A model generated the notes under the pieces. It made no database searches. It was given only the letters and a program-made list of their open reading frames with translations, and was not told where the DNA came from. A DNA stretch of 36,428 nt, taken from an uncultured bacterium (lineage in GTDB: Bacteria; Verrucomicrobiota; Kiritimatiellia; RFP12; UBA1067). Both the position numbers and the translations under genes were made by a program. This document shows, piece by piece, positions 1-6,767 of the stretch. Where the stretch lies: the NCBI GenBank assembly GCA_902776615.1, contig CACYQU010000018.1, forward strand, positions 1-36,428, read 5' to 3'. The number at the start of each line of letters is the position of its first letter. Position 1 is the stretch's first letter.

Positions 1-132
1 CTTCCTGTCTTTTCCATGCGCTGACGCGCAGGGACTAAATTTCCGCACCCTTAGACAATGCTCGAAAATGTCGCTTGAAATTTACAGTTGCTGTCCCCGC
101 TTGGGCTTTATCTACCACTACCCCCAGAAAGC
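1..132. other. left-edge non-coding stretch, no gene seen
   Basis: I see no reading frame with a ribosome binding site, no tRNA and no clear terminator here. It ends in a pyrimidine-rich run just before the tandem repeat array. It could be the tail of the spacer behind an unseen gene to the left. Confidence 0.5.
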
Positions 133-316
133 AAACCCTATATAGACTTTAGGGTAAACCCTATATAGGATTTATGGTAAACCCTATATAGGCATTGGGG
201 GAAACCCTATATAGGGTTTTGGTTAAAGTCTATATAGGGATTGGAGTAAAGTCTATATAGGATTTAGTGTAAAGTCTATATAGGATTTGGGGTAAAGTCT
301 ATATAGGGCTTCTATT
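133..316. repeat. eight tandem 23-bp near-palindromic repeats
   Basis: The units begin at 133, 156, 179, 202, 225, 248, 271 and 294, an exact 23-bp period with no indels. Every unit has the core CTATATAG. Units 1-4 start AAACCCTATATAG and units 5-8 start AAAGTCTATATAG, so the array has two blocks. Unit 4 contains the perfect 18-bp palindrome AAACCCTATATAGGGTTT (202-219). Unit 1 joins an AAACCC left half to GACTTT, the complement of the block-2 half-site. The array is AT-rich in a GC-rich surrounding and ends about 170 bp before the promoter of the next gene. It looks like an array of protein-binding sites (iterons or operators); the binding protein is unknown. Confidence 0.95.
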
Positions 317-341
317 TAGAGGGGGCGGAGAGCGGCTTTTC

Positions 342-415
342 ACTGGGGGCGCGGGCGTCCCGCCCGCGGACAAGCGCGAGCACTCTTTCATTGGGGGCGC
401 GGGCGTCCCGCCCGC
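342..415. repeat. two GC-rich hairpin repeats, REP-like
   Basis: A 26-bp sequence occurs at 342-367 and again at 390-415, differing only near its left edge, with a 48-bp period. Each copy holds GCGGGCGTCCCGCCCGC, a 7-bp perfect stem with a TCC loop. Such GC-rich palindromes resemble dispersed extragenic (REP-type) elements. No transposase is nearby. Confidence 0.8.
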
Positions 416-461
416 TCTCCCAGTTTATCTCCCGGTTTATGTTCTTTCGTCGCCGACGCAC

Positions 462-491
462 TTGCGCACGGGCGAGAGAATATGGTATAAT
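462..491 (+). promoter_or_regulatory. promoter of the beta-helix protein gene
   Basis: There is an extended -10, TGGTATAAT, at 483-491, with a weak -35 TTGCGC at 462-467 and an 18-bp spacer. The expected transcription start near 498 gives a leader of about 275 nt. The greA promoter has the same TTGCGC/18-bp/TATAAT arrangement. Confidence 0.75.
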
Positions 492-773
492 AGCACCATC
501 TGTTGATAGGTGGGCACGAGCCCACAAATTGGCAGCTAGAATTCCCGCGCGTGCAGGCGGCACAAAGTGACGCCAAGCGCGTATGGGACTGCGTCGGATG
601 AAAGTGTAGGAGCGAACATCCAGAAAGACGCATCGACAGGCACTGCCGTAATGCAGTTTCGCCTCTTCCGATGTATCTTTCAGGGTATTCCTACACGCCT
701 CATCCGGTGCATCGGAGGAGGTGTCCAGTTCCCGCACCGCTCCGATAAAAACCGAGGGGCTGAGGTGTGTGGT
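492..773 (+). promoter_or_regulatory. long structured 5' leader, candidate regulatory RNA
   Basis: Several stems can be read by eye. GTGGGC/GCCCAC pair at 510-525 around an ACGA loop. GGCG/CGCC at 556-574 enclose CAC/GTG around AAA. TGCGTC (590-595) with GACGCA (627-632) nests GGATG (596-600) with CATCC (617-621). ATCGGAG (711-717) with CTCCGAT (740-746) encloses GGTG/CACC just before the start codon. I do not recognise a known riboswitch family. A GAGG at 762-765 is the likely ribosome binding site. Whether the structure is functional is inference. Confidence 0.5.
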
Positions 774-3700
774 ATGATACAAAAACTGACAAAGGCTACA
801 ACGCGGGTGCTGGCGATACTCTTCGCCGTATTCGCAACAAGCGAGGCGTGGGCGGCGACACCAGTCGCAGTCTGGGACGGTGATTTTACAGCATCGCAGA
901 CAGGCTACACGCTAAACCTCAACGATAACACGTTGAGGGACAACAACTCGGTTATTGAGATAACCAGTACATACTCTGGTGTTGACATTAATTTTAGCGC
1001 CGATATGTCGTCAAGCGGTGTCACTTTGCTTGTCAAGTACTCAGATTTTGTTAAAGGAGAAAAGGCCAAAGTTATTGCTACGCAGTGCAATGACGGCAAC
1101 AATTATTCAAAAGATCGTACCGGCGTAGATCTTCAGGCGGAAAATAAGCTATGGGGCATGTGGTACAACAATGGTTGGGCGGACAATGGTACTACGTCGG
1201 CTGCAGGGGTGTTCCCTTCAAGCGGAATGTATGCGTTCACTTACAAAAACAGTTCTGGCACCTATTTGTATGCCAGTGCGAACCCGCCTGAAACCGCATT
1301 TACGCAGGTTTTTGGAGAAAGTGGACTTAAGGGTGGTACTGATAAGCTTTGGGGCGTGACAGTCGGTGGTATGAGGAGCGGCTCGCAGAACACGAATTGG
1401 CGCGCTGCACAGGGAGCCAAGATTACAGGTATTGCAGTGTTTGACAAGTTGCTTTCTGTGACGGAAATGCGCACCTATGTCTGGCCGAATGATGATATTC
1501 CTGAGTATTCGCTGACGCTCGATGGAACAGCGAAGAACTGGAGCGATGGTACGTGGAAGCAAGGTGACGTCGCAATTGGTGAAGCACCTACATCTGGAAA
1601 CGTGACCATCAATCTTACTGCTTCGACAACACTTACAATAGATGAAACTGTTTTGTTGAACGATTTTACGATCAACGCAGCGCCAAACGTAGTCTTGACA
1701 TTGGTGAAAGGAACAAGCGGTTCTCTTGTCGCAGGCGAAAAGGTTGTGGTCAAGTCGGGCGTCTTGAAGCAGGGCTCGGCGGCAGTACTAGGTGAGTCGC
1801 CTTCAATTGTCGTGGAGAATGGCGCAACATTCGATCTGAACGGTCTTGCGGTTTCTGAATCAAACGCCTTCTCCATCGAGGGCGCGGGTGTGGGCGACTG
1901 GCCTTGGGCGCTCACATCTTCCGGTGGTGAATTCTCTACGGGAACACTTAGGGCGTTCACGCTTACTGGCGACGCGACGGTTGGCGGCGCAAACAAGATA
2001 GGATGCGGAAAGAGCGGCGCGGCATCGTATCTTGGATTCGGCACTTACAAGTTGACAAAGACTGGAGCAGGAGAGCTCTCGTTCACCAATATCCGTTCTG
2101 CTGTGGGCAGCGCGGGCACGTTTGATATTGTTGGAGGTAAGGTTACGCTTAATGAATACACGAATCTTGATGGATCGAATGCGGACGGTGATCCTTGGGC
2201 CAAGACCGAAGTTATTGTTCGCGAAGGAGCGTCATTGGTAAGCAATATCGGTCGTTGGGTTTGGGTTGGAACTCTTACCCTTGATGGAGGTTCAGCCACT
2301 ACGAAAAGTAGTTATATCGCTATGCAGGATGGTTTTGCTGGTTCTGGAACGCTGGACAGGGCGGTGTTTAAAGGTGGTGCAATCGCCTTGTTGACAGGGA
2401 ACCTTGATGTAACATCAGAAATGAGCCTCAATGGGAACATATCGTTTGTCAAGGGTCCGCAAACCTTGTCCGATGTCGTCGTGACGCCGGCTGCGCTTAC
2501 GGCGTCTTCCGGTACGATTACGGTTGGCTCGGGCGTCACGCTCAATGTCGGTGAGAGCCGCCCGACGGCGACGATCACCGTCGTGCAGGGCGGTTCGCTC
2601 GCGGCGCAGTTGCAGAGCGCATCCGACGTCATCGCGCTTTCGACGAGTGCCCAGCCCGCCAACGTCATCCTCTACGATGCAAACGGCGATGTGGTTTCAA
2701 ATCCGCGCGTCACGTATTCCGATGGGACGCTCACCATCATGCCGCCCGTGCCTACGCTTCAGGCGAGCGGGACTGTTGCGTTCGATACGACGGCGAACTG
2801 GGTTGACTCTGTGATGCCTGACAACGACGGCGACGCGATCATTGAACTTTCCGATAATGCCACGATCACGGTTTCCGGAACATACTCGCTCGGTTCGCTA
2901 ACCATCACGGGAACCGGCGTGGCGACCTTCTCTGGAAACGGAACGATCACGGCCGCCAACATTAGCGTCAAGAACGGCGCGACGTTCACGCGCAATGCCA
3001 ACATTTCCGCAACTACGGGAATCAGCCTTGATTCTGGCACGGTGCTTAGGCTCAATGGTGTCACCGAGAGCGCTGCAATCTCGGGCGCAGGCGCGGTGGA
3101 GACATACGGAACAGTTGTTCTCGCCCATGCCAACACGATGACGGGTGGCATCACTGTCAAGCCGGGCAGTGCGCTCTCGACGACGGCTGCGGGCGGATAT
3201 GGCGAATATCAGGCTAGTTGGGCATACACGGCGCAGAGGCAGGTCGTCGTTGAAGACGGCGGTACGGTTGACATCAACAATGTCGCTAATAGAGACGGTG
3301 CCGTCGCGCTGACGGTTGCCGGCAAGGGCATTCTTTCCGGCGGCGTCTACTCCGGTGCGGTGACGTATTCCGGCACGACCGCGATTACGAGCGGTAGCCG
3401 CCAGATTTCCTCGCTCGTTCTTACAGGCGATGCGCTTGTTGATGTTGGCGCGGGCTGGGGTCTGGTGCACAGTGGCTGGAAAGATGCGAGGCTTGGACTC
3501 AACGGCTATACGCTCACGGTGCGCGGCACGGGAACATTCCCCGTCGTCAACGCGAACAATGTGAACGGCTCGGCCACGACGGGAACTCTTGTCCTTGATG
3601 GAGCGAAGCTGGAGTTGAGTAATGCCGCCAGCAACCTTACAGGTGTTGATGTCGTTGCCAAAGGGTGCGCCTCTATCAACCTCGCGAAGGCACCTTCGGC

Positions 3701-4607
3701 TCTTGGTTCGCTTACGCTCAAGCCATCGGCGACTGGAACAACGGCGTCGGCGTGGAATCTTCCTTCTGGATGTGTTCCATCGCTTGATACCTCCAATGTT
3801 GATCCGTCTGGACTCTCTGTCGGCGATGTGTTGACGCTCTTCACTGCGCCGCAGGCGACAACATTGACCGCTGAAACGATTTCGGTAAAAGCTGGCGGAC
3901 GCTTTACGACAACCATAAGCGGTAACACTGTGTCGGCTACGATCAAGACCCCCACGAACTTTATGCACTACGACTTTGACGCAGCCAACTCGATAGCATC
4001 CGATTCGACGTACAACATCGGGAATCTGAATCCTTCATTCGACAATTCAAGATGCGGTGGCAAGGCGGGTGTGTTCAGCAGTTCATACAAGCCTTACTAT
4101 GACTCAAACACATCAGGGAAGTCGCCTTTCTACGCTGGCGAGATGACAGCAACGACGCTTATCAAAATCAAAGAAGCCAACAACACGATTCTTTGGAACT
4201 TTGGAAGCGGATGGAACGCCGGTATTGCCTTGGTGGTGAAGAATTCGACCACCGTATCGCTTGTGTCTTGGACGGGTGGTGCTGCTGGTAGCGATGTCGT
4301 CTCTGTAACTGGCGTTACAGATCTTATGAACACTTGGCATCTCATTACATTCGTAGCGGATGCAAACGGCACGACACTTTATGTCGATGGCCGCTCTGTG
4401 ACTGTCGATACGGTTTTGCCTTCGACTATAGGTGGACAGGGGCAGTTTGGATCAATCCACGGCACCGCGAAGAACTATAGCGCCGTTTCTGGCGAGGGCT
4501 ATCTCCTCGATGACTGGCGCGTGTATGATGCGGCTTTGACAGAGGAAGAAGTGTTGGCACTAAAGGCGACACTTCTTATTCCCGGCACAACCTTCACCGT
4601 GTACTAA
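774..4607 (+). CDS. secreted giant beta-helix protein with LamG-like ends
   Basis: This is a predicted exported surface or secreted protein of 1277 aa. I chose the ATG at 774 because GAGG lies 8 nt upstream and the next residues form a signal peptide (Lys-rich start, hydrophobic core, likely cut after SEAWA near residue 27). The open frame extends upstream to 567, but that part is arginine/proline-mixed and looks non-coding. Residues ~28-240 look like a concanavalin/LamG-like fold ending in a typical 'AVFDKLLSVTEM' strand. Residues ~250-1060 are Gly/Thr/Ser-rich beta-helix repeats with autotransporter-type (PATR-like) motifs such as LTKTGAGELSF. Residues ~1062-1277 form a second LamG-like domain ending DDWRVYDAALTEEEV. 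No outer-membrane beta-barrel or sorting tail is visible, so the export route beyond the inner membrane is unknown. A role in glycan binding or adhesion is inference. Confidence 0.85.
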   Translation: MIQKLTKATTRVLAILFAVFATSEAWAATPVAVWDGDFTASQTGYTLNLNDNTLRDNNSVIEITSTYSGVDINFSADMSSSGVTLLVKYSDFVKGEKAKVIATQCNDGNNYSKDRTGVDLQAENKLWGMWYNNGWADNGTTSAAGVFPSSGMYAFTYKNSSGTYLYASANPPETAFTQVFGESGLKGGTDKLWGVTVGGMRSGSQNTNWRAAQGAKITGIAVFDKLLSVTEMRTYVWPNDDIPEYSLTLDGTAKNWSDGTWKQGDVAIGEAPTSGNVTINLTASTTLTIDETVLLNDFTINAAPNVVLTLVKGTSGSLVAGEKVVVKSGVLKQGSAAVLGESPSIVVENGATFDLNGLAVSESNAFSIEGAGVGDWPWALTSSGGEFSTGTLRAFTLTGDATVGGANKIGCGKSGAASYLGFGTYKLTKTGAGELSFTNIRSAVGSAGTFDIVGGKVTLNEYTNLDGSNADGDPWAKTEVIVREGASLVSNIGRWVWVGTLTLDGGSATTKSSYIAMQDGFAGSGTLDRAVFKGGAIALLTGNLDVTSEMSLNGNISFVKGPQTLSDVVVTPAALTASSGTITVGSGVTLNVGESRPTATITVVQGGSLAAQLQSASDVIALSTSAQPANVILYDANGDVVSNPRVTYSDGTLTIMPPVPTLQASGTVAFDTTANWVDSVMPDNDGDAIIELSDNATITVSGTYSLGSLTITGTGVATFSGNGTITAANISVKNGATFTRNANISATTGISLDSGTVLRLNGVTESAAISGAGAVETYGTVVLAHANTMTGGITVKPGSALSTTAAGGYGEYQASWAYTAQRQVVVEDGGTVDINNVANRDGAVALTVAGKGILSGGVYSGAVTYSGTTAITSGSRQISSLVLTGDALVDVGAGWGLVHSGWKDARLGLNGYTLTVRGTGTFPVVNANNVNGSATTGTLVLDGAKLELSNAASNLTGVDVVAKGCASINLAKAPSALGSLTLKPSATGTTASAWNLPSGCVPSLDTSNVDPSGLSVGDVLTLFTAPQATTLTAETISVKAGGRFTTTISGNTVSATIKTPTNFMHYDFDAANSIASDSTYNIGNLNPSFDNSRCGGKAGVFSSSYKPYYDSNTSGKSPFYAGEMTATTLIKIKEANNTILWNFGSGWNAGIALVVKNSTTVSLVSWTGGAAGSDVVSVTGVTDLMNTWHLITFVADANGTTLYVDGRSVTVDTVLPSTIGGQGQFGSIHGTAKNYSAVSGEGYLLDDWRVYDAALTEEEVLALKATLLIPGTTFTVY

Positions 4608-5399: not shown

Positions 5400-6767
5400 A
5401 TGTCAGTCAACATACCCTACAAGACCTATCTTTCAGAGAACGAAGTGCCCGGCGAGTGGTACAACGTGCGCGCGGACATGAAGAAAAAGCCCGCGCCGCT
5501 CATCATGCCGTCCACCCTCAAGCCGTGCACGGCCAACGACCTTGCGCCTGTGTTTTGCGACGATCTCGTCAAGCAGGAGCTTGACGACCATACGGCGTTC
5601 TTCCCGATTCCGAAGGAGATACGCGACTTCTACAGGATGTTCCGTCCCTCTCCTCTTATAAGGGCGTACTTTCTCGAGAAGGCTTTGGGCACGCCCGCGA
5701 AGATATACTACAAGTTCGAGGGCAACAACACTTCGGGTTCGCACAAGCTGAACTCGGCCGTCGCGCAGGCGTACTACGCCAAGGCGCAGGGACTGAAGGG
5801 CGTGACGACCGAGACCGGCGCGGGACAGTGGGGAACGGCGCTTTCGATGGCGTGCGCGTTCTTCGGGCTCGACTGCCGCGTGTTCATGGTGAAGTGTTCG
5901 TACGAGCAGAAGCCGTTCCGCCGCGAAGTAATGCGCACATACGGCGCTTCCGTTACGCCTTCGCCGTCGATGACTACGCAGGTGGGCGAGAAGATAAACC
6001 GCGAGCATCCCGGCACCACGGGTTCGCTCGGCTGCGCGATTTCCGAGGCGGTCGAGGCCGCGGTGAGCAACCCCGGCTACAGGTATGTGCTGGGTTCGGT
6101 GCTCAGCCAGGTTGTCCTTCACCAGTCCATCATAGGCCTCGAGGCCCAGGCCGCTTTCCGCAAGCTCGGCGAGAAGCCCGACGTGATCATCGGCTGCGCC
6201 GGCGGCGGATCGAATCTCGGCGGATTGATTGCGCCGTTCATGGGCGAGAAGCTTCGCGGCGAAAACGACTACCGCATTTTGGCGGTCGAGCCGGCGAGCT
6301 GTCCGTCGCTGACCCGCGGCAGATACGCCTACGACTATTGCGACACGGGCCGCATATGCCCGCTCGCGAAGATGTACACGCTCGGTGCGGACTTCATACC
6401 GTCCGCCAGCCACGCGGGCGGACTTCGCTATCACGGCATGAGCCCCATTCTGTCCGAGCTGTACGACCAGGGATTGATGGAGGCGACGAGCGTGCGGCAG
6501 ACCGACGTATTTGCCGCGGCGCAGTATTTTGCGCGCACCGAGGGCATCCTGCCCGCGCCAGAGTCGAGCCACGCCATACGCGCCGCGATGGATGAGGCGA
6601 TCAAATGCCGCGAGAGCGGAGAGGCCAAGACGATACTCTTCGGACTTACCGGAACGGGCTATTTCGACATGACTGCATACCAGGCTTTCAACGACCATTT
6701 GATGGGCGACTACGTGCCGTCCGACGGGGAGCTGGAGGCGTCCTTCGCCAAGCTGCCCAAGGTTTGA
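5400..6767 (+). CDS. trpB: tryptophan synthase beta-like protein, TrpB2 type
   Basis: The product is a 455-aa PLP enzyme that condenses indole with serine to tryptophan. The N terminus (residues 1-90, with RPSPLIRAYFLE) and overall length fit the TrpB2 subfamily rather than the ~400-aa TrpB1. The PLP lysine is K116 in GSHKLNSA, followed by ETGAGQWG and the phosphate-binding GCAGGGSNLGG loop (265-275). AGGAGG lies 7 nt before the ATG at 5400. There is no trpA or other trp gene in the window. TrpB2 proteins are known to act without TrpA, often salvaging free indole, so that role is likely but not proven here. Transcription is probably monocistronic from the promoter at 5369. Confidence 0.92.
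   Translation: MSVNIPYKTYLSENEVPGEWYNVRADMKKKPAPLIMPSTLKPCTANDLAPVFCDDLVKQELDDHTAFFPIPKEIRDFYRMFRPSPLIRAYFLEKALGTPAKIYYKFEGNNTSGSHKLNSAVAQAYYAKAQGLKGVTTETGAGQWGTALSMACAFFGLDCRVFMVKCSYEQKPFRREVMRTYGASVTPSPSMTTQVGEKINREHPGTTGSLGCAISEAVEAAVSNPGYRYVLGSVLSQVVLHQSIIGLEAQAAFRKLGEKPDVIIGCAGGGSNLGGLIAPFMGEKLRGENDYRILAVEPASCPSLTRGRYAYDYCDTGRICPLAKMYTLGADFIPSASHAGGLRYHGMSPILSELYDQGLMEATSVRQTDVFAAAQYFARTEGILPAPESSHAIRAAMDEAIKCRESGEAKTILFGLTGTGYFDMTAYQAFNDHLMGDYVPSDGELEASFAKLPKV

Follow-up and report, generated by a model that had tools for sequence, protein, structure and literature searches.

The window, by which we mean the whole stretch of 36,428 nucleotides that was analysed, carries close to its left end an array of eight equally spaced near-palindromes, and the nearest gene downstream encodes a 1277-residue protein that we record as a neighbour only, claiming no functional link. 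The features on which the analysis draws are the following.

121..132, + strand: left boundary of the array, CCCCCAGAAAGC, similar by eye to the CCCCTCAGAAG that borders the arrays of contigs C12, C13, C15 and C43 on their left
133..311, + strand: array of eight sites of 18 bp, each a near-palindrome around CTATATAG, with 5-bp linkers and a pitch of 23 bp (direct reading, repeat finder and shuffles)
133..150, + strand: unit 1, of the leading-end type AAACCCTATATAGACTTT, a hybrid of both half-sites (AAACCC...GACTTT)
202..219, + strand: unit 4, a perfect 18-bp palindrome, AAACCCTATATAGGGTTT (direct reading)
312..329, - strand: right boundary, whose reverse complement starts TCCGCCCCCTCT and is similar by eye to the left-end motif of the sister arrays, as an inverted end would be
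774..4607, + strand: nearest downstream gene, a 1277-aa ORF with a Laminin_G_3 domain (ORF call and Pfam)

The CTATATAG cores start at positions 138, 161, 184, 207, 230, 253, 276 and 299, and this count of eight compares with a mean of 0.03 and a maximum of 1 in shuffled sequence. Tandem Repeats Finder reported the array at 133-307 with a period of 23, 7.6 copies, 83% matches and 0% indels. The first four units have AAACCC as their left half, the last four AAAGTC. The first-pass annotation had described eight units at a 23-bp period without any indel, these two half-sites, a perfect palindrome in unit 4 and a hybrid in unit 1, and all of this was confirmed by direct reading and by the repeat finder (7/7 spacings of 23 bp). 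Its array end at 316 is corrected to 311, where the last 18-bp site stops, and its spacing of about two helical turns, although exact at 23 bp, is closer to ~2.2 turns. The window therefore shows one property of an iteron origin, namely several direct, equally spaced sites of initiator type (eight sites, every one of the seven spacings being 23 bp).

The ATG at 774 is a chosen start, the downstream ORF being open from a GTG at 567, and with the chosen start the gap between array and gene is 462 bp; a consensus promoter scan of window positions 1-900 found none. Three further observations concern these surroundings. Between the ATG at 774 and a TATAAT hexamer at 486-491 lie 282 bases (window 492-773) that have a very strong predicted RNA fold (-128 kcal/mol, z -6.5, equalled by 0/200 shuffles), without an Rfam match at E<=1 or a second copy in the fetched loci, and it is possible that they form a previously unrecognised structured leader or small RNA. 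A GC-rich palindrome, GGGGGCGCGGGCGTCCCGCCCGC, stands in two copies just downstream of the array (~344-417). Window positions 1-99 are identical (99/99) to the first bases of contig C4, an array adjoining them in both contigs, and from this match the two contigs seem to start at the edge of one repeat.

The window's own Kiritimatiellae draft genome (G000; 2.35 Mb in 127 contigs, 88% complete) contains 44 adjacent pairs of the form CTATATAG-N15-CTATATAG, as against 0 for the reversed control pattern; single cores number 60 versus 24 for the reversed pattern, and 56 of the 60 fall inside eight arrays. These arrays, a lower bound for the genome, lie on C4 (6 sites, allowing at most one mismatch), C12 (8), C13 (9), C15 (9), C18, which is the window (8), C31 (4), C36 (7) and C43 (7). 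Recurrence in the genome had been proposed as a check on the array, and with at least eight copies the counter-proposal of a unique neutral repeat does not hold. Outside the three cores by which each array was detected, and among cores that deviate at one base at most, a spacing of 23 bp was found in 32 of 34 cases and an exact core likewise in 32 of 34, and the 15-bp spacers averaged 73% identity in the better orientation. Four arrays (C12, C13, C15, C43) have a common left boundary, CCCCTCAGAAG, and a common right boundary, GGTTTTACCCCC, and those on C4 and C31 have in common a 164-bp stretch, comprising the left flank and first sites, that is 97% identical. The first units on C12, C13 and C15 are AAACCCTATATAGACTT, as is unit 1 of the window. 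AAACCC occurs in seven of the eight arrays and is confined to their leading units: the window has it in units 1-4, five arrays have it in the first unit or the first two, and C43 has it in the third of seven. AAAG(C/T)C and other variants come after, and six of eight arrays close with an AAAG(C/T)C unit, the final unit of C12 being one base shorter and that of C31 reading AATGCC. Because the half-site order is kept across arrays, their polarity was apparently preserved in copying. The two-block half-site switch noticed in the window is thus real but not peculiar to it, since 7/8 arrays of the family have AAACCC among their leading units.

We also observed in this genome a second palindrome, GGGGACWGTCCCC, in 40 exact copies, several of them paired at 22 or 24 bp. 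It lies near several CTATATAG arrays (L185, L188, L006, L007 and L011 among the loci concerned) and also in-frame within ORFs, as judged by eye from GTVP in a dihydropteroate synthase-like ORF. Two loci with CTATATAG arrays, L008 and L006, contain further short arrays at a 22-bp pitch, with cores AGAGGTGGCAGGTCTAGACGCC and CACCCTTAGGG.

Such dispersal could be that of a REP- or MITE-like non-autonomous mobile repeat with no present role, copied by an enzyme that recognises the sites as ends. The multiple copies, the boundary motifs common to several arrays, the nesting among short repeats such as GGGGACWGTCCCC and a patchy occurrence in relatives (3/61 genomes of the genus and 3/114 of the family, the window's own counted in each) agree with this explanation, and G000 does encode Y1 transposase-like proteins (six matches, five above the cut-off). 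However, none of the six lies on an array-bearing contig and the fetched Y1 loci contain no CTATATAG, the GTAG and CGTC tags are absent from both strands of all eight arrays, and a passive repeat needs no exact pitch with drifting linkers. The combination by which REP/RAYT systems are recognised, a tagged stem-loop and a REP-flanked Y1 gene, was not found in G000. Arrays and REP families (PMC3733652) are alike in being dispersed short palindromes in intergenic DNA, and differ in the missing tags, the lack of a Y1 transposase on array contigs and the strict 23-bp multi-site design. We regard a mobile repeat of this kind as a somewhat unlikely origin for the arrays.

The genes beside the G000 arrays bear on a regulatory role. 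By Pfam they encode the Laminin_G_3 protein (window), an SNF2 helicase (C4) and an AAA_14/DUF4143 ATPase with PRiA4_ORF3 (C31); C36 has a glycerophosphotransferase and, one gene on, a glycosyltransferase, and C43 has an LRR_5 protein (a BspA-type LRR surface protein) 1.2 kb off. The array-side ORFs of C12, C13 and C15, some of them long, received no Pfam assignment. Gene settings are variously tandem, convergent and divergent, and large secreted or surface proteins among the assigned neighbours are confined to the window and C43, together with a Laminin_G_3 protein two ORFs from an array in the related genome G033. A regulon of surface (beta-helix) genes, as the first-pass annotation had envisaged, finds no support in neighbours that differ in function and orientation. 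The related idea of an array for a cooperative binding protein fares better in one part: repeated binding to the palindrome is supported by a core and pitch that are held while linkers drift, in two phyla, and the regulon role is not.

The recurrence in a second phylum came from a scan for three in-phase cores in one genome per species (84,980 species, a collection from which the window's own records may be absent), which returned 58 stretches, of which Bacteroides sp. 519 (G114) accounts for 52. One of these 52, L052, proved to be another tandem repeat and was dropped, leaving 51. Elsewhere, three-core arrays were found in Prevotellaceae (L027) and Symbiothrix (L045); two matches were set apart by eye, L047 (Desulfobacterales) for its identical 23-bp units and L051 (Chromatiales) for its 11-12-bp spacing. 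Closer to the window, the two carriers of adjacent CTATATAG cores at a 23-bp pitch besides G000 are G033 and G059, and in a draw of 149 genomes from the genus of Bacteroides sp. 519 adjacent cores were present in three, strain 519 included, the reversed control matching in one. Viral contigs scanned for the CTATATAG triple gave none, one relaxed match (L192) being different in character by eye, and the Kiritimatiellae-type double site had no match there; blastn with the window array for plasmid or phage copies returned short chance matches only. Literature searches described no such repeat as CTATATAG among the matches listed and gave no match to the palindrome GGGGACAGTCCC.

In G114, 47 of the 51 arrays have five sites and four have four sites. 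Counted as for G000, every one of the 98 spacings beyond the detecting triples measures 23 bp and 91 of the 98 cores are exact, giving 130/132 spacings of 23 for both genomes pooled, and the 15-bp spacers average 50% identity in the better orientation. Spacer preferences are symmetric: the base that follows a core tends to be A/C and the fifth base A/G, and the complementary preference precedes the next core. This pattern suggests that the G114 site is likewise an 18-bp palindrome with a 5-bp linker. Linker and flank preferences differ between the two genomes, and the common core and pitch could therefore be convergent. A neutral tandem minisatellite, spread by slippage and duplication, would account for the copy number of 4-9 among G000 arrays and for the local likeness of adjacent units, of which the two-block pattern of the window is an example, but not for a near-invariant core and pitch with differing linkers, for five sites in 47/51 G114 arrays or for recurrence in another phylum. 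The constancy of core and pitch beside variable linkers largely refutes this explanation, the variable copy number in G000 notwithstanding, and we consider it very unlikely.

No G114 array lies wholly within an ORF (0/51), and compared with the remaining gaps of those loci that span 150 bp or more, as delimited by a simple ORF caller, the arrays lean to divergent gene pairs: 17/39 versus 13/54 with ORFs of at least 80 aa (p 0.07), 16/38 versus 14/58 at 120 aa (p 0.07), 16/36 versus 11/54 at 150 aa (p 0.02) and 15/32 versus 9/55 at 200 aa (p 0.003). This intergenic placement and the lean to divergent pairs would be expected of an operator array, at which a transcription factor controls the adjoining genes. 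Against an operator stand the G000 neighbours, which have neither function nor orientation in common, the absence of arrays from nearly all relatives searched, and in the window itself the ~460 bp to the chosen ORF start and the lack of a promoter in the region scanned. We judge operator arrays to be unlikely.

A second genome of that Bacteroides genus, G261, has five-core arrays with cores (C/G)TATATA(C/G), one at a pitch of 22. Its IS21 element ends, by eye, in two ~23-bp repeats, which raises the notion that the arrays are solo multi-site transposon ends of the IS21, Tn7 or Mu type. The G261 IS21 end sequences differ from the arrays, though, and no transposase was seen with a pair of arrays on either side of it. 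The sole IstB-profile match in G000, as in G114, is partial and weak and lies inside a ~500-aa ORF that is presumably DnaA. IS21 ends were rejected, there being no IS21 IstB in G000 or G114 and no two ends bracketing istA and istB in a search that covered IS21 IstB. Repeated transposase sites are a property of such ends (PMC10122671), and we hold solo transposon ends to be a most improbable source of the arrays. As a separate observation, a CRISPR-like array on contig C26 of G261 (L108) starts exactly where an IS21-type element stops.

To find proteins associated with the arrays, array-side ORFs of different genomes were compared by BLAST, which yielded eight pairs, one of them with both members directly beside an array: L046:4641-5561 of Bacteroides sp. 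519, 31 bp off, and L091:621-1487, 14 bp off (E 7e-27). Both proteins consist of Lin1244_N and DUF7833 by Pfam. Beside Kiritimatiellae arrays nothing initiator-like matched; the one pair returned by the comparison, between G000 and G059, was weak (46 aa), its genes lying 4.7 and 3.3 kb away from the arrays, and no shared family was found there by Pfam. A search with PF14297 (Lin1244_N) gave 13 matches in 4/8 genomes and none at E<=1e-3 in G000, G033, G059 and G116, the first three being 88, 64 and 58% complete; nor did Pfam recognise a replication gene among the ORFs beside arrays in G000, G033 and G059. Where PF14297 genes do have an array on their 3' side, it starts at or soon after the stop codon, and the cores differ.

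This arrangement was surveyed in the family of Bacteroides sp. 519, in which 11 of 151 genomes had a match at 1e-6. The 43 gene loci compared, drawn from this survey and from the other searches for such genes, comprised 21 that match both domain models, 15 that match the N domain only and seven that match neither and were set aside. Arrays of at least four sites at a 20-25-bp pitch lie within 300 bp 3' of 10/21 two-domain genes, which is not a family-wide frequency, as the domain models were built from an alignment (A2) that included array-bearing genes; with at least three sites the count is 12/21. On the 5' side none of the 21 genes has even three sites (10/21 versus 0/21, Fisher 0.0005), and shuffled 3' stretches gave at most 2. 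Eleven two-domain genes lack an array of at least four sites, five of them being paralogues in one genome (G409), and a B. finegoldii gene showed no array by eye even when its circular record was followed past the start. The 15 N-domain-only genes have no array of four or more sites and three sites in seven cases. Two of the loci set aside, L183 and L184, are decayed gene copies with five-site arrays.

The initiator-side arrays have at least six distinct cores. As counted by the detector, five-site arrays carry (C/G)TATATAG (three genes) or AAATGAACTGCATTT, a six-site array carries GCCACAC/GTGTGGC, and four-site arrays carry AATTGCTCGGGGCAATT (two genes), CTATATAG, a GGCTTGCAG core or TTCGTCCGGCAGG (five sites by eye). 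Two initiators that are 28% identical both have TATATA-core arrays at 23 bp, from which it follows that the TATATA core recurs in the family. Among the matches listed, the literature contained nothing on arrays beside Lin1244 genes or on Lin1244 DNA sites.

The next gene could be tallied for nine of the ten array-bearing genes, L157 being left out. It encodes a Toprim + DnaB_C primase/helicase in L138, L139, L141 and L142. In B. ovatus NZ_CP081918 it is annotated as a primase/helicase and is followed by DUF4248 (see PMC6231650), ATP-binding, HU and amidase genes, and in phage scaffold MT839949 it resembles a primase/helicase by eye. No primase/helicase gene lies within the stretch seen in L128, L132 and L137. 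We note that in the B. ovatus locus (L150) the 'hypothetical protein' annotated at 5780-5935, in the interval from initiator to primase, shares sequence with the five-site array and is unlikely to be a real gene, and that the module was seen beside polysaccharide genes in two Bacteroides records. PHROGs assigned the Lin1244_N/DUF7833 protein to 'replication initiation protein' in all three cases tested (E 2e-5 to 2e-18) and the linked protein to 'DNA primase/helicase' in both cases tested. An AlphaFold model of the initiator (pLDDT 77, pTM 0.40, 11 sequences) matched models of viral Lin1244_N proteins and of a 'replisome organizer' (E 2e-5 to 3e-4), with TM scores by query length that are low (0.26-0.34). 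A fold search of the PDB gave nothing below E 0.001, weak matches including winged-helix proteins, and a PDB sequence search gave no match better than 0.15.

An array 3' of an initiator gene followed by a primase/helicase, as found in these Bacteroides relatives, is the layout of an iteron replication origin. The closest known systems are the iteron origins of plasmids and phages, exemplified by lambda O/ori lambda, R6K and the P1 iterons, with which the arrays share equal-pitch tandem sites of ~20-23 bp and, in the Bacteroides family, a place immediately next to the gene of a predicted winged-helix initiator, which a primase/helicase gene often follows. The window array differs in standing alone in the chromosome, in many copies per genome, with no initiator gene found there. 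An adjacent initiator gene was found at none of the G000 arrays, as against 10/21 two-domain genes of Bacteroides relatives, and no helicase or primase was recognised near them either. The first-pass statement that no element of this form had been described was too strong, given that palindromic equal-pitch arrays behind initiator genes have the iteron-origin layout. Lin1244/Lin1753 (PF14297) + DUF7833 genes provide the closest architectural relatives of the window array, CTATATAG at 23 bp among them, while the gene family itself was not detected in the window genome.

Arrays separated from parts of this module are also found in Bacteroides. Gene and array occur with no primase gene in the stretch seen in G261 (L132, L137) and G114 (L128, L131), the initiator gene being shortened in L137 and L131. 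In G114, initiator-gene DNA lies within 1 kb of 21/51 arrays (one intact gene, two truncated and 18 short remnants), with the array on the gene's 3' side in 15 of the 21 (one-sided sign test 0.04), and none was detected within 1 kb of the other 30. The short remnants could mislead, all of them containing or falling in one ~100-bp A/G-rich stretch of the gene. The gene remnants suggest that at least part of the solo arrays descend from initiator-array units. The A/G-rich ~100-bp segment, seen beside G114 arrays such as L020, L062 and L069, may be an unwinding element or a repeat that invaded the gene.

We propose that the window array is an orphan iteron array, that is, a set of replication-initiator-type binding sites without their replicon, a reading drawn from sequence to which we give about an even chance. 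For the window, a link to an initiator-type protein is suggested by a core and a pitch that are both identical, by a comparable site design and by the TATATA cores that two initiators only 28% identical have at 23 bp; the likeness may be convergent, because short cores and 22-23-bp pitches are few. The number of sites, which varies from 4 to 9 in G000, speaks against an orphan iteron array, as does the preference of G114 arrays for divergent gene pairs, a placement more in keeping with an operator. If the proposal holds, the eight equal-pitch sites would dock a dimeric winged-helix protein of replication-initiator type from a phage- or plasmid-like mobile element, and of that element probably only the array has stayed in the chromosome. 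Binding would be cooperative at 23-bp steps, with about one dimer per 2.2 turns (an 18-bp palindrome and a 5-bp linker), and in an intact module would load the helicase, as at other iteron origins. The Kiritimatiellae array would be bound by a protein of the same general kind, and chromosomal copies would then be only titrating or decoy sites, or remnants.

A bolder version, in which dozens of decoy origins, iteron arrays of a mobile element maintained by selection although the replicon is gone, were spread through the chromosomes of some gut bacteria and titrate invading initiators, we regard as decidedly unlikely. Its precedent is Per in lactic-acid bacteria, where copies of a phage origin-like region block the accumulation of phage DNA in a copy-number-dependent manner (PMC6356513). 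Per raises one origin region in copy number, whereas here there are many short chromosomal arrays. Were decoys the true function, the arrays would amount to a genome-wide, purely DNA-based form of Per immunity. More generally, what was an anonymous repeat becomes one half of a protein-DNA pair that can be tested, namely a Lin1244_N/DUF7833 initiator with its own array, and a set of such pairs would yield a code that links initiator to site. The Lin1244_N/DUF7833 module is thereby a candidate type of replication origin, and one may ask what reason chromosomes have to retain intact orphan arrays by the dozen.
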